Shown here: piece by piece, positions 5,059 through 15,846 of the stretch
How the letters are laid out: the number at the start of each line of letters is the position of its first letter
Numbering within the stretch: position 1 is the first letter of the stretch
Source: a virus
Virus record (IMG/VR): IMGVR_UViG_3300030329_004907
Coordinates: 1-20,306 of that record
DNA: 20,306 nt
Reading direction: 5' to 3' (one strand)
Made by a program: the position numbers and the translations under genes
The notes under the pieces: generated by a model
What the model saw: the letters and a program-made list of their open reading frames with translations, nothing else
What the model was told of the DNA's origin: nothing
The model's database searches: none

Positions 5059-5882
5059 TAGATCGCCAGGTCGTCGAAGTCGGCAGTTTGATATACCCGC
5101 TCAACGTTCACCTGATACGGGGTCGAAATGAGCGCTTTCGCGGTTGCGTCCTCTTCTGGTCGGTAATAGATCCAGAGAAACTCGTGCCCACTTTTGGCGG
5201 GTACTGTAATGCCGCCGACGTCGAGGCTCGTGATATTCTGCGACGCTACAAAGCTATACGTCACCTCTGGGTCGGCGGTCGCCTCCTGCCGACCCCGGGC
5301 GCCCAGAAACAAGAGCTCGCCCGCGGCCCAGCTATTCCACGTCGCGTCATTTGTTCGGCCCGTCAGTCCGGCGAGCGTTTTGACGTAGGCGGTTGTTAGC
5401 GTCGCGTTCGCTTGTCTCTTCACAATCTCGAATTCTAATTTGGGAACGACGACGTCGACCCCGCTCGCCTTCTTGCCGTCGTAGCCGATAAGCCCGCCAA
5501 AATTCGCCGCGACCTCGCCGACTCTCGCCGTGCGAGAAATGGTTTCCAGGCTGGCTGTCATCTTCTCGCGGCCGCCCATCGTATTGAACGACCACGACCA
5601 GTCACCAGTGTCGTTATCGGTGTCCAATTTATCGGGGTGTACATATTGGGCGGTAAACTTCCAGACGCTCGGCCCTTCTCGGTTCCAGCTCAGCGACTTT
5701 TGAAACAGCTTCCCAGGGCCGCCCGTGATCGCGATATCGTCGGGCACGCTGGGCGAGACGGCCGCCTTCGCGGTTGTCTCGTTCGCGTAGCCGGTCGCGT
5801 ACCATGTCAGGGTTCGCGTCTGATCCTTCGCGCCTGAGTCTGCGCCGTTTCCGTAATCGAATGCCGTAAATACCTCACTCAT
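5058..5882 (-). CDS. Putative distal-tail/minor tail protein
   Basis: 274 residues from ATG 5882, coupled to the tape measure stop by TAATG. An in-frame upstream extension exists but is low-complexity Arg-rich shadow sequence, so the coupled start is preferred. The protein is beta-rich with many Trp and Tyr ('TLTWYATGY', 'GDWSWSFNTM', 'HEFLWIYYRPEE') and a closing 'QTADFDDLAI'. It has no Cys clusters and no catalytic motif. The gene right after the tape measure usually encodes the distal tail or tail-tip hub component, and its size (about 270 residues) fits that role. The assignment rests on position, not on sequence family. Confidence 0.72.
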   Translation of the reverse strand: MSEVFTAFDYGNGADSGAKDQTRTLTWYATGYANETTAKAAVSPSVPDDIAITGGPGKLFQKSLSWNREGPSVWKFTAQYVHPDKLDTDNDTGDWSWSFNTMGGREKMTASLETISRTARVGEVAANFGGLIGYDGKKASGVDVVVPKLEFEIVKRQANATLTTAYVKTLAGLTGRTNDATWNSWAAGELLFLGARGRQEATADPEVTYSFVASQNITSLDVGGITVPAKSGHEFLWIYYRPEEDATAKALISTPYQVNVERVYQTADFDDLAI

Positions 5883-7645
5883 TAGGCGGCCCCTAGGTTG
5901 TTGTTGAGCTGCTCGCCGGCGTCGGCGCCCTTGCGCGTCGCCTCGGCGATCTCGAGCAGCGCCTCGAGCTGTTGCGATTGGATCCCGCCACCCCCGCGGC
6001 CCAGCATGGCGGCGCCCAGGGCCGAGAACGATCCCGCGGCCGTGTCGGCGGTCGCGGTCACGGTCGCCAGCTCGGGCAGCTCTGGGCCGGCAGGGCCCGG
6101 CGTTGGTGCGGCCGCCTCCGCCTCGCGGGCGGCTTGCGCGGTCGCCCGGTTTAGTTTGCGCTGTAGTTCGCCGAGCTTTGCGTTCGTCTCGGCGAGGCTC
6201 GCAGCCCCTGCCGCTTGTCTCGCGTTCGCGTTGCGCTCGGCCTGTTTCTCGAGCCCGTCGGCAAAGGCCCGTTGATCGTCTGAGATGATCCGAATCGACG
6301 CCTCGGCATCGACAAGCCCAAACATTCCGGCGACCGTCAAGAGACCCTTGGCGATACTGCTCACGATATCGTTCCACAGCACCCGAATACGGTTCAGCGT
6401 CTGATCCCAGGCTGACCAGAGCCCATCAGTGAAGGAATGCCACACGGGGAGCACCCGCGCCATACCAGCATAGAAGGCCGCCTCGAGTCCGAGCCACGCG
6501 ATCTCACCAGCCAGCGCGAGATTGCCCGCGGCGAGCGCGTCGAAAATACCCTGCAGCACGGGCCGCACGACCTCGAGCAGGCCCTGAAACTTGCCGACGA
6601 GCCAATCGATCGCCGCGCCGCCCGTTCCCGAAAAATGCAAGAAGGCCGCGCCGGCAGCTGCCAGCCCGCCGACGATCAGCGTGATCGGGTTGAGCAAAAA
6701 CGCGAGCGCCGCGCCCAGGGCCCCGACGGCCGCCATCATCCCAGAGATCGCGATGCCGGTAGTCGCCAGGGCCGCGCCGAAAGCGACCACCCCGCCCAGC
6801 ACGGCGAGCACGATCCCGACGATCCGCATGATCGAGGCCATCAGCTCGCCGTTGTTTTGGATCCAATTGACGACCCAGCCGACAACCTGGGCGATCTTCT
6901 CAGCGAGCAGCGTCAGAAACGGCGCCGCGGCCGCCCCGATCGCTAACACCCCGCCCTTGATCGACGCCCAGAGTTCGAACAGGGCGTCGGTAAGCGCGGC
7001 GGCGCTGTTCGCGCCCTCGTCGCTCATGGTAACGCCCAGGTCCCGCGCCCGCTGCCGCATCTCCTCGATACCAGCCGCGCCGCTCTGCACCAGCGGCGCC
7101 AGCGCCTTGTAGCTGTCCCCGAGAATCTCGAACCCCATTTGCGCCGCCCGGCTCTGGTCGTCCATTTTTGAGAGGGCGTCCGCTAAGAATAAAAACTGAT
7201 CCTCGGGTTTGAGCTTGTTGAGGTCCTTCGCGTTGATCCCGAGCTCTTTGAGGGCCCGCACGGCCGGCCCGGTTGCGGTCGCCGCGTTGGCGATCCGGCG
7301 CCGCATCCGAAAGAGCGTCCCGCCGACCTCCTCGAGGCTCGTCCCGCTCAGCTCGGCGGCGTGCCCCAGCTCCGACAGCGCTTGAACCGAAACCCCCGTT
7401 CTCGCGCTCATTTTGTGCAGCTTGTCGCCGACGTCTGCGAAATGTTTACTCGCTGCGATCAACGGCGTCGCGATCATCGCGCCGATCCCCATCCCGAACC
7501 CGGCGATCCTGGCCCCCTGGGCGCGAGCGAACCCCGCGAAGGCCTTGAGCTGGGCGCGGGCTCGCGCGAGCCCTTTCCCGAGCTTTGATTTCGTCGCGAG
7601 CTCGACGAATGCCCGACCCGCTCGAATTGCCGACCCCTGCGCCAT
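5882..7645 (-). CDS. Tail tape measure protein
   Basis: 587 residues from ATG 7645 (TAATG overlap). The N-terminal 80 residues are Ala/Lys/Arg-rich helices. Residues about 70-220 contain 'GVSVQALSELGHAAELSGTS', the segment typical of tape measure N-terminal domains. Residues about 230-340 are strongly hydrophobic with several potential membrane segments, and residues about 465-520 are Ala/Glu/Gln coiled-coil. Tape measures set tail length and are ejected into the host envelope, where the hydrophobic part can insert. At roughly 1.5 angstroms per residue, 587 residues suggest a short tail of about 85-90 nm, shorter than lambda's (inference). It follows the chaperone genes in the canonical order. 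Confidence 0.92.
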   Translation of the reverse strand: MAQGSAIRAGRAFVELATKSKLGKGLARARAQLKAFAGFARAQGARIAGFGMGIGAMIATPLIAASKHFADVGDKLHKMSARTGVSVQALSELGHAAELSGTSLEEVGGTLFRMRRRIANAATATGPAVRALKELGINAKDLNKLKPEDQFLFLADALSKMDDQSRAAQMGFEILGDSYKALAPLVQSGAAGIEEMRQRARDLGVTMSDEGANSAAALTDALFELWASIKGGVLAIGAAAAPFLTLLAEKIAQVVGWVVNWIQNNGELMASIMRIVGIVLAVLGGVVAFGAALATTGIAISGMMAAVGALGAALAFLLNPITLIVGGLAAAGAAFLHFSGTGGAAIDWLVGKFQGLLEVVRPVLQGIFDALAAGNLALAGEIAWLGLEAAFYAGMARVLPVWHSFTDGLWSAWDQTLNRIRVLWNDIVSSIAKGLLTVAGMFGLVDAEASIRIISDDQRAFADGLEKQAERNANARQAAGAASLAETNAKLGELQRKLNRATAQAAREAEAAAPTPGPAGPELPELATVTATADTAAGSFSALGAAMLGRGGGGIQSQQLEALLEIAEATRKGADAGEQLNNNLGAA

Positions 7646-8229
7646 TAGACCAGGTCCTTGAATAGATCGGGAAACTTTCCGCCTTCGACAAAGTCCTCGA
7701 GACTGGGCCGCATAAAGGGCCGTTTCGCGATCCTCACCCGTTTTCTTACAAACGACTTGCGGCCGCGCTTAGTGACCTCGACGACCGCCTCGGTCTCGCC
7801 GCCCTTCTCGAGTAGCTCGGGCACCCCGCCCGCATTGAATAGCACGGGCCCGACAATGGTTGTCATTTCAGCCCGCGCGAAATGGTAGAAAATCGAGCGA
7901 ATCCCCCGCTCGCCTGCGGCGACGTGCGAGAAAGGCGGCTCGTTCGGCTCGCTGCGCGTCTTTAGCTTTTTCTCGATCGACTTTTTCGCCCGTTCGCGCA
8001 CCTTTGAGCTATACCAATGGGGCGGGCCTCCGCGGCTCTTGGCGAGCTGGAGTTTCGTCGGCCGCTTGTGCTTGATCTTCTTCTTCGCGATCGTCTGCAG
8101 CTCGCGACCGGCGAGGCTGAGGCGCTTACTGCTCGCCTGGTCGAGCGCCGGCTGAATACTGCGCCCCTGCGGGTCGAGGAAAAAGTCGAAGTCGAAACCG
8201 ACACTAAAGTCGATCGGGTTCGCGGCCAT
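7645..8229 (-). CDS. HK97-gp10-like / tail completion-type protein
   Basis: 194 residues from ATG 8229 (TGATG overlap with the chaperone T frame stop). The protein is basic in the middle ('KKKIKHKRPTKLQLAK'). It contains 'GPVLFNAGGVPELLEKGG' and ends in 'RIAKRPFMRPSLEDF'. A terminal '(A/K)RPFMRPAL' segment is a hallmark of HK97 gp10-like and other tail-completion proteins. Position between the tail assembly chaperones and the tape measure is unusual for gp10 in HK97, where it lies before the tube, but planctomycete-type phages may differ. Probable role: neck or tail-end assembly. The family assignment is moderate. Confidence 0.72.
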   Translation of the reverse strand: MAANPIDFSVGFDFDFFLDPQGRSIQPALDQASSKRLSLAGRELQTIAKKKIKHKRPTKLQLAKSRGGPPHWYSSKVRERAKKSIEKKLKTRSEPNEPPFSHVAAGERGIRSIFYHFARAEMTTIVGPVLFNAGGVPELLEKGGETEAVVEVTKRGRKSFVRKRVRIAKRPFMRPSLEDFVEGGKFPDLFKDLV

Positions 8230-8663
8230 CAGCTGCCCCCCCCTGCGGCGTTGAACATCGCCCGCAGCGTCGCCCGGTTACCCTTCGCGAGCCGAACCCC
8301 GCCCGGCTTCTTGCGCGGCGCGAACGGGTTAAAATCGGCCGCCTGGAACGGTGCCCGCTGCCGCTTCGGATCGCGGGCCGTGTTGGCAATCATCGCGAGC
8401 ACGTTCGAGGCGATCGACCAATCGGCCTTATCTCTGCCCTCTTTCATTTCGACGAGCTCCCAGTATTTAAGCGGCCCAGGATCGACCCCTATCGCCCCCG
8501 CTAGTTCGTGGAGGCGCTGCCACCAGACCCAACTAGCTCCGCTCTCGCCGCCTTCTCGGCCTTCTCGATGTGTTTCATCATCAGGCGCTCGGTCGCCGGG
8601 TCCTCGAACAGCTCGACGACCTTCTCGCTCCCCCTCTCGATCAGCCTCTGTACGTTCCGCCAC
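8229..8663 (-). CDS. Tail assembly chaperone T-type frame (product of -1 frameshift from G)
   Basis: This open frame lies -1 relative to the 8992 gene and overlaps its end. Only the part below about 8545 looks protein-coding: 'SWVWWQRLHELAGAIGV', 'YWELVEMKEGR', 'ASNVLAMIANTARDPKRQ' and 'FQAADFNPFAPRK'. The pattern W..LHELAG..G..P...(L/Y)WEL..M..GR....W....V..M..N..RD is typical of the T extension of G-T tail chaperones. The segment above 8545 is Arg/Glu/Gly-rich antiphase sequence, and no plausible start lies at the junction. I infer a G-T fusion of about 250 residues made by ribosomal frameshifting. No canonical X-XXY-YYZ heptamer is evident. Confidence 0.75.
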   Translation of the reverse strand: MAERTEADREGEREGRRAVRGPGDRAPDDETHREGREGGESGASWVWWQRLHELAGAIGVDPGPLKYWELVEMKEGRDKADWSIASNVLAMIANTARDPKRQRAPFQAADFNPFAPRKKPGGVRLAKGNRATLRAMFNAAGGGS

Positions 8664-8992
8664 TGCGCTAGGATCGCCGGCCCTCTGGCCGGCCCACCAA
8701 AAGCCGCCAGGGTCTCGATTAGTGCGCTTTGGGCGTCGACGATCTGGTCGACCCCGATCAGCTCGCCGAACTGCTCGTCGCTCACCTCGCGCCCGTCGGC
8801 CTCTTTGCGGCAGAGGATATAGAGCGCGCCGACGACGAGCTCGAAAGATTCCGACAACCTGACGAGCGTCGTGTTCTGTTTGGTCAGCAGGTCGGCGGGG
8901 TCGAGATCTAGCTCGCGTCGTAATTGTTTCGCTGTGGTCGCGTTGATGTCCGGGTGCCAGGTTGTCCCGTTTCGGTCGTTGAATTGTTGCAT
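8501..8992 (-). CDS. Tail assembly chaperone (lambda G-like)
   Basis: 163 residues from ATG 8992. An ORF extending upstream to 9115 exists, but that part is antiphase sequence. The protein begins 'MQQFNDRNGTTWHPDINATTAKQLRRELDLDP', cut here only to describe: a short beta hairpin, then helices with 'LVVGALYILCRKEADGREVSDEQFGELIGVD'-type text spread over residues 50-80. The order 'W.(L/P)DI...T.K.LR..L.(L/V)D..DL' then 'LYxLC(K/R).(E/Q)AD....SDE.FG' is one I know from G-type chaperones of planctomycete and proteobacterial prophages. It coats the tape measure during tail assembly and is not in the mature virion. Its start has no good ribosome-binding site and overlaps the preceding gene by 85 bases, implying coupling. 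Confidence 0.83.
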   Translation of the reverse strand: MQQFNDRNGTTWHPDINATTAKQLRRELDLDPADLLTKQNTTLVRLSESFELVVGALYILCRKEADGREVSDEQFGELIGVDQIVDAQSALIETLAAFGGPARGPAILAQWRNVQRLIERGSEKVVELFEDPATERLMMKHIEKAEKAARAELVGSGGSASTN

Positions 8993-9171
8993 TGATAAAC
9001 CGCTTTCATAGCCGCGGCGAGAGCGCCCGCCTGTTCTAATCCCCAGGGTAGAGAGGGGCAGGCCGCCCAGCGTAGCGCCGTAAATAGCGCGAGCGCCTCG
9101 CGGCCTTGGGTCCATTCGAGGCGGTATAAGTGCCCCTCGTGGTCGATCTCGACGAAATAGATATCGTCGAT
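8908..9171 (-). CDS. Hidden small gene with apparent AUC start, unknown function
   Basis: 87 codons open between a TGA at 9196-9198 and the TAG at 8908-8910 in a frame with no ATG, GTG or TTG before a late ATG near 9002. The frame is clearly coding-like: 'IDDIYFVEIDHEGHLYRLEW', then 'TQGREALALFTALRWAA' and 'LEQAGALAAAMKAVYQ', with GC-ending codons. A strong AAAAGGGG lies six bases before ATC at 9171, which is the best placed start. Without it, about 230 bases (9223-8993) would be empty in a packed operon. The last 27 codons overlap the G chaperone. No family recognised; 'GHLYRLEW' suggests a small alpha/beta protein. The start could also reflect a sequence error of one base. Confidence 0.55.
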   Translation of the reverse strand: MDDIYFVEIDHEGHLYRLEWTQGREALALFTALRWAACPSLPWGLEQAGALAAAMKAVYQCNNSTTETGQPGTRTSTRPQRNNYDAS

Positions 9172-9223
9172 GGTGTGCCCCTTTTCCGTTTTATGTCAGC
9201 CCGCGCCCGGCGCGGGGTTGTTG

Positions 9224-9577
9224 CTAGTCGTCGGCCGCTGTTTCCTCGGTCGCTTCGACAGGCGGGTCGACCATCGGGGCGACCGGTTCGCCAGCCAGCG
9301 CCAGCACGTCGGCAGCTTGCCAAAGTACCGATTCGGCGCCCTTAGATCGCAGCAGGCCGCGGCGCAAATTGGCGGCCAGCTTGTCGCCCTTTGGCGCAGC
9401 TTCGACCAGCGCCTCGCCCTCGTCGCGGCTGACATGAACCAGCCCGCGCGTCGGGTCAATCGCCTGGATATTCTCGATCTCGGCGGCGTCGAATTCTGGC
9501 ATAAGGCCCGCGAGGGTTGCGTTTTTCCACTGCTCGCCGCGCTCGATTGCGAGCTTGGCCCGTTGTTTAATTTCCAT
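9224..9577 (-). CDS. Hypothetical protein between tail tube and chaperones
   Basis: 117 residues from ATG 9577, with AAAGGGGAA about 5 bases upstream. An in-frame extension to 9661 overlaps the tube gene and is rejected. The N-terminus 'MEIKQRAKLAIERGEQWKN' is a charged helix. The middle contains 'LVHVSRDEGEALVEAAPKGDK', quoted only to residue-level pattern: a mixed alpha/beta region. The C-terminus is acidic and Pro/Ala-rich ('VEATEETAADD'). It lies where many siphoviruses encode a first tail chaperone or tail-tube cofactor, but I see no family signature. Confidence 0.72.
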   Translation of the reverse strand: MEIKQRAKLAIERGEQWKNATLAGLMPEFDAAEIENIQAIDPTRGLVHVSRDEGEALVEAAPKGDKLAANLRRGLLRSKGAESVLWQAADVLALAGEPVAPMVDPPVEATEETAADD

Positions 9578-9590
9578 GGTTTCCCCTTTG

Positions 9591-10058
9591 CTAGCTCGCC
9601 GTGAACCAAGTAGGTACAACGAGCGCGCTCGACTCTTCGGCGTAAACCGGCTTAGCTTCAAAATCGACCGTACTCGCGTCCTCGAGTCCCTGGTTGAGTG
9701 TGTTACTAAAGAACTGACAATGGGCGCGGATACCCTGACAGCCCGACTCCGTCGCCGGCCCGTCGAGCGCCAGGAGCTCGTAGGTCGTGCGAGAAAAGAA
9801 GGCGGCCCGGAGCGCGTCGAATACCGCGTCGGTGCCTTGCTTGTGCAGATAGTTAAAACTGATCGCGAGCTCTTTCAGGCCCTGCCGGGTCAGCTTCCAC
9901 GCGCTTTCGCGGGCGTTGGTGGTGACCTCGCTCGCGGTAATCGAGATAGTGCAATCTATCGTTTTGCTTATCTCCACCCACGTCGGGCTGGCGTGTGTCG
10001 CCGAGTTGTAGTAGAGCTTAGATTCTTGGCCCGTCACTGGGGTCTGAGTTAGCGCCAT
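9591..10058 (-). CDS. Major tail (tube) protein
   Basis: 155 residues from ATG 10058, with AAGGA about 9 bases upstream. The protein reads like a tail tube protein. An N-terminal strand has 'WVEISKTIDCTISI'. The conserved 'ASEVTTNARESAWKLTRQGLKE' region is described as '(D/E)VTT(N/R)....W....GLKE'. 'ISFNYLHKQGTDAVFDALRAAF' follows, then a beta-strand block ending 'VDFEAKPVYAEE'. This matches the TP901-1/HK97-type tube fold pattern. Hexamers stack along the tape measure to form the tail tube. The gene order (terminator protein, tube, chaperones, tape measure) supports the call. Confidence 0.85.
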   Translation of the reverse strand: MALTQTPVTGQESKLYYNSATHASPTWVEISKTIDCTISITASEVTTNARESAWKLTRQGLKELAISFNYLHKQGTDAVFDALRAAFFSRTTYELLALDGPATESGCQGIRAHCQFFSNTLNQGLEDASTVDFEAKPVYAEESSALVVPTWFTAS

Positions 10059-15537: not shown

Positions 15538-15846
15538 TCACTCCCAGCTTTTATCAATGCGGGCCTGACCGCAATTGCTGCAGCTGGTACGCCTCAGCAC
15601 GACCCGCGAGAACGGTAGCCGGTAGACCCCGCCGCAGATACAGCGCTCGCCCCGGGTGCCGACCTGCGGGCAGTCGTCGCAGCGGGTCCCGGTGTACTGG
15701 TGGACGGTCGCGTTCCTGTAGGGTTCGCGGTCGGCGCTGCCGCAGGCGTTGCACCTGCTCGCCTCAGCTCGCACGACGTCGCGTTCTTTCGTCTTGGCGC
15801 CCTTGGGCCGGCCTCGTTTCTTGGTCGCGGCTTTTTTCTTGCTCAT
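15538..15846 (-). CDS. Zinc-ribbon protein with AT-hook-like N-terminus
   Basis: 102 residues from ATG 15846, overlapping the TerL stop by four bases (ATGA). The N-terminus is very basic and includes 'KKRGRPKGAK', which fits the AT-hook core G-R-P flanked by Lys/Arg. Four Cys pairs follow: 'CNAC', 'CDDC', 'CICG' and 'CSNC', spaced like one or two zinc ribbons. The layout suggests nucleic-acid binding. Coupling to TerL suggests a packaging-related or late-regulatory role, for example a DNA-binding helper of terminase or a late transcription factor. No named family is certain. Confidence 0.8.
   Translation of the reverse strand: MSKKKAATKKRGRPKGAKTKERDVVRAEASRCNACGSADREPYRNATVHQYTGTRCDDCPQVGTRGERCICGGVYRLPFSRVVLRRTSCSNCGQARIDKSWE

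Follow-up and report, generated by a model that had tools for sequence, protein, structure and literature searches.

The stretch of DNA analysed here (the window) covers bases 1 to 20,306 of an IMG/VR virus record that is 29,919 bases long. It carries on its minus strand a packed morphogenesis operon with genes for a terminase, a portal, a GP7-type major capsid protein, a major tail protein, two small frames designated P2 and P1, a tail assembly chaperone, a gpT-like domain and a tape measure protein. The virus record contains 10 N in L003 231-578 (about 20,230-20,580 of the record), and because of these undetermined bases the scaffold was probably gap-joined at that point. The genes considered are the following.

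12169-11240 of the window: GP7-type major capsid protein
9591-10058, minus strand: major tail protein (PHROG 1407; profile match with E 2.7e-6, homologues in relatives)
9224-9577, minus strand: P2, a 117-residue gene with an ATG start and an AAAGGGG Shine-Dalgarno sequence
8908-9171, minus strand: P1, candidate gene of 87 codons from ATC; coding part with good support about 9171-8993 (first 60 codons)
8501-8992, minus strand: gpG-like tail assembly chaperone, start set by homologues
8229-8700, minus strand: gpT-like domain, encoded in the chaperone gene's -1 frame and conserved from W, 8522, onwards
5882-7645, minus strand: tape measure protein

The P1 frame is stop-free on the minus strand from 9195 to its stop codon at 8910-8908. 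It consists of the ATC at 9171 and 86 further codons, with the first in-frame ATG, GTG or TTG being the ATG at 9009 (codon 55), so that the 87-codon frame without an early canonical start described in an earlier note can be read directly from the sequence. The 231 bp between the P2 stop (9224) and the chaperone start (8992) agree with the statement, also made there, that without P1 some 230 bases of a packed operon would be empty. The last 85 nt of P1 are overlapped by the chaperone gene. An open frame by itself proves little, since comparably long stop-free runs are no rarity in this GC-rich DNA: 24 of 344 wrong-frame stop-free runs extend over at least 95 codons.

Codon usage was evaluated with a log-odds score trained on 18 genes of the phage, each gene being left out in turn for the reference windows. 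Codons 1-30 of P1 score 0.594 bits/codon, a value reached by 0.11% of 2,718 stop-free wrong-frame windows, and codons 1-60 score 0.311 bits/codon (gene mean 0.28), which is reached by 1.8% of such windows; because the windows overlap, these fractions are descriptive and not strict p-values. Codons 60-87, which lie in the chaperone overlap, score -0.16, the same as non-coding DNA. The gene-like codon usage looked for in a gene with a non-canonical start is thus present in approximately the first 60 codons, and the "strong coding character" previously attributed to the whole frame is borne out for about the first 40-60 codons but not for codons 60-87. The competing frame, an upstream extension of the chaperone to an ATG at 9115 (9115-8993), scores -0.14, at the non-coding level; this, together with the gene-like first 30-60 codons, argues for a P1 gene.

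The region may nevertheless contain no gene, being a non-coding spacer or a chaperone leader in which the open frame, the codon signal and the Shine-Dalgarno motif described below coincide by chance in GC-rich DNA. The number of long wrong-frame runs and the fraction of wrong-frame windows that reach the 60-codon score are in keeping with such a coincidence, but the 30-codon signal is rare by chance and falls together with a good and well-spaced Shine-Dalgarno sequence. Moreover, no Rfam family matched the P1 region. We consider the absence of a gene unlikely.

Relatives were gathered by terminase and capsid searches, which gave 80 IMG/VR loci each, and by a search with the T domain, which gave 80 genome loci. 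The T-domain loci come mostly from Planctomycetota assemblies, and on this basis the host of the phage, for which the contig itself carries no record, is probably a member of the Planctomycetota. Many IMG/VR contigs encode relatives of the major capsid protein at 41-50%, and Akkermansia phage Chantilly has one at 27%; this distribution suggests that the phage group is widespread among Planctomycetota and their relatives.

The chaperone homologues start at, or a few residues from, the residue equivalent to 8992. In 95 of the 106 loci that have both genes, the distance from the major tail protein gene to the chaperone gene is -1 to 107 nt; the same junction in this phage measures 598 nt and is occupied by P2 and P1. 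Different inserts are found at this point in 11 relatives (L058, L096, L098, L102, L103, L115, L124, L130, L215, L246 and L256). The insert in L115 encodes a trypsin-like peptidase domain (Trypsin_2; Pfam PF13365, E 2.4e-9), that in L103 is a small gene on the opposite strand, and those in L058, L098, L215 and L246 encode unrelated proteins. As in phage morons, the insert is absent from most relatives and its flanks are conserved. Since relatives mostly have the flanking tail genes almost adjacent and 11 have other inserts, we conclude from this comparison that P1 and P2 are accessory cargo in one insert and not a conserved tail gene. The description of P1 as a tail-operon gene consequently holds for its position, but not for its being a tail gene. 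Given the usual range of -1 to 107 nt, 231 empty bases would be unusual at this junction, which also weighs against a mere spacer. Whether or not the AUC is used, foreign genes enter these phages at the junction of the major tail protein gene with the tail chaperone gene.

No homologue of P1 was detected by tblastn in 50,697 phage records, in two IMG/VR scans, or in 392 genomes of the phylum of the related-prophage carrier, a search for which a positive control was impossible. Low-stringency tblastn and phmmer comparisons with the fetched relative loci gave no P1 homologue, and there was no significant profile or sequence match in Pfam, PHROGs, NCBIfam, PADLOC or the PDB. For P2, there was no convincing homologue, the matches being weak and at chance level. 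On these comparisons, P1 does not appear to be a known tail protein or a member of another described family, and the collections searched yielded no homologue in which the P1 frame or the ATC could be compared. AlphaFold2 applied to P1 alone gave, with low confidence, a β-hairpin and two helices; the mean pLDDT was 52.5, so that a fold search with the model would be meaningless.

The features around the presumed start of P1 are as follows.

9178-9185, minus strand: Shine-Dalgarno sequence AAAAGGGG, followed by six bases (CACACC) and then ATC 9171
9169-9171, minus strand: ATC, presumed start-codon position of P1
9149-9170, minus strand: predicted 7-bp hairpin UCGACGA/UCGUCGA, in which two bases of the AUC, U and C, are paired (-12.1 kcal/mol, z -2.15)
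9200-9216, minus strand: predicted GC-rich hairpin between P2 and P1, without a U-run (-13.5 kcal/mol, z -1.34)

The ribosome-binding site that had been placed six bases before ATC 9171 is present, as AAAAGGGG at 9185-9178. Its duplex energy, -7.2 kcal/mol, ranks fourth among 15 starts; an equally good Shine-Dalgarno sequence precedes 4.2% of ATC triplets. P1 and P2, the latter with an ATG, have the same AAAGGGG Shine-Dalgarno sequence. No ATG, GTG or TTG in any frame follows that of P1 at a usable distance, and it therefore serves ATC 9171 or nothing: the frame has no canonical start, and a Shine-Dalgarno sequence stands at a functional distance from a near-cognate codon. In favour of coincidence in a region without a gene, AAAGGGG occurs at about its chance frequency (3 against 2.6 expected), and the third occurrence, at 15529-15523 on the minus strand of the window, shortly after a gene that ends at 15538, is followed by no start codon.

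The 46-nt start region folds at -12.1 kcal/mol, compared with -2.7 to -5.2 kcal/mol for four canonical starts of the same phage. Initiation at an AUC covered by the predicted hairpin should be weak, if it occurs; such a structure fits low expression and, equally, a dead start, and the burial of the start also lends weight to there being no gene. In the way of possible transcription signals, the sequence upstream of P1 shows only the GC-rich hairpin, which lacks a U-run.

P1 may also be a gene that has, or once had, an ATG at 9171, the ATC being the lost start of a decaying cargo gene, a minority strain variant captured by the assembly, or a sequencing or assembly error. The Shine-Dalgarno sequence has the ideal spacing for initiation precisely at 9171, and wherever else in the operon a start can be placed with confidence, it is ATG or GTG. 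Cargo genes that are orphans can often be dispensed with, and no relatives of P1 were detected. A stop codon in another frame, TGA 9008-9006, lies where one would expect a normal gene to end ahead of the chaperone, so the P1 frame may carry an old indel. ATC 9171 is known from one metagenome-derived sequence, as the near-identical contigs L002 and L005 (97-99%) end before 9171. The window, however, contains no N, the rest of the first 60 codons is free of signs of decay, and consensus substitution errors are uncommon in assembled contigs. We regard a present or former ATG as a real possibility, though one well short of an even chance.

Overall, P1 is probably a gene with its start position at 9171. 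The claim of a missed gene with an AUC start is thus supported, through codon usage, the Shine-Dalgarno sequence and the operon gap, as far as a gene at this site is concerned, but the support does not extend to initiation at the AUC. Weak initiation at the AUC is plausible and not without precedent, but the fit is nearly as good for a lost ATG, a strain variant or an assembly error; that P1 is a real gene that uses its AUC weakly is our tentative preference, to which we give slightly less than an even chance. On this preferred reading, P1 would be a small accessory gene that shares with P2 the insert separating the major tail protein gene from the tail chaperone gene, and its product would have about 60-87 residues. 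Initiation by initiator tRNA at AUC 9171 would be infrequent and would be made possible by the strong Shine-Dalgarno sequence 6 nt upstream, and low expression would be maintained by the AUC together with the hairpin covering it. The product would most likely be a non-essential accessory protein. The analysis shows the open frame, the gene-like codon usage, the Shine-Dalgarno sequence, a predicted hairpin and the absence of the insert in relatives; translation of P1, use of the AUC, a low dose and any function are inferred. Counting against an AUC-started P1 are the failure to find any homologue that would show conservation of the frame or of the ATC, the non-coding-like last 28 codons, the long 85-nt overlap and the unusually structured start, and a single-base base-call or assembly difference is possible. 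It is distinctly unlikely, in our judgement, that P1 is a functional and deliberately throttled gene, in which the AUC is the only start, its C completes the 7-bp hairpin, and the strong Shine-Dalgarno sequence gives no more than traces of protein, with expression perhaps released under some condition. If the AUC is used, P1 would be a natural example of a phage gene that has no start other than AUC, and genes of this kind escape gene finders restricted to ATG, GTG and TTG; if the start is dead, the locus would simply be a cargo gene caught in the course of its loss, which is nothing unusual.

Genes that start with AUU or AUA (infC and pcnB, and cvfC1 and ccpN of Staphylococcus aureus; PMC13009471) resemble P1 in having a near-cognate start, ideal spacing, a strong Shine-Dalgarno sequence and an expectation of low expression, and cvfC1 (61 residues) likewise encodes a small protein. 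In S. aureus, each of the AUU and AUA starts is accompanied by an extended Shine-Dalgarno motif, and expression from them is about 10% of that from AUG (PMC13009471). The starts of these genes are conserved or have been demonstrated by ribosome profiling and reporters, whereas P1 has an AUC, is an orphan and is known from sequence alone. AUC as an initiation codon, as proposed for P1, has a counterpart in one ATC-initiated N-terminus identified in Escherichia coli by N-terminomics (TRAINSPOTTER, PMC13245402); that N-terminus, however, belongs to a known gene, in which it marks an alternative start farther upstream, whereas P1 would be an unknown gene with no start but its ATC. Phage morons are, like P1 and P2, extra genes at a junction of the structural operon that most relatives lack. 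They differ from morons with their own promoter and terminator in that, as far as the sequence shows, both sit inside the operon and on its strand.

The -1 frameshift of lambda gpG/gpGT is a likeness of the chaperone pair that flanks P1, and not of P1 itself. In all 144 loci, the chaperone's -1 frame encodes the T domain. In the 108 nt that precede the conserved tryptophan, the -1 frame has 1 stop in 4,392 codons, compared with 2-3% farther upstream; the +1 frame over these 108 nt is not stop-free. An in-register XXXYYYZ heptamer is found in 106 of 123 loci, most commonly U UUU UUC, spanning the codons GAT TTT TTC. The corresponding feature of this phage is

8696-8702, minus strand: U UUU GGU, probable -1 frameshift site, with U UUU UUC at the equivalent place in relatives

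and a 7-bp GC hairpin at 8693-8676 follows it. From these sequences, the chaperone pair looks as though it uses a programmed -1 frameshift in the known lambda-type arrangement. The U UUU GGU of this phage is weaker than the conserved U UUU UUC (L034, L051, L074 and about 120 more loci).

The use of a -1 frameshift at this next junction, and a chaperone frame that is open upstream to 9190, would accommodate translation of the P1 region within a larger product, either by P2 reading into P1 or by frameshifting from P1 into the chaperone. The homologous chaperones examined, all starting at or close to the equivalent of 8992, speak against such a product, and we think it very improbable. Read-through from P2 into P1 is ruled out by the P2 stop at 9224 and the P1-frame stop at 9198-9196, and a P1-to-chaperone frameshift is unsupported, there being no XXXYYYZ slippery site from 9171 to the chaperone start. 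As for the T domain, a purely mechanical ORF call would put its start at a false GTG, 8663.
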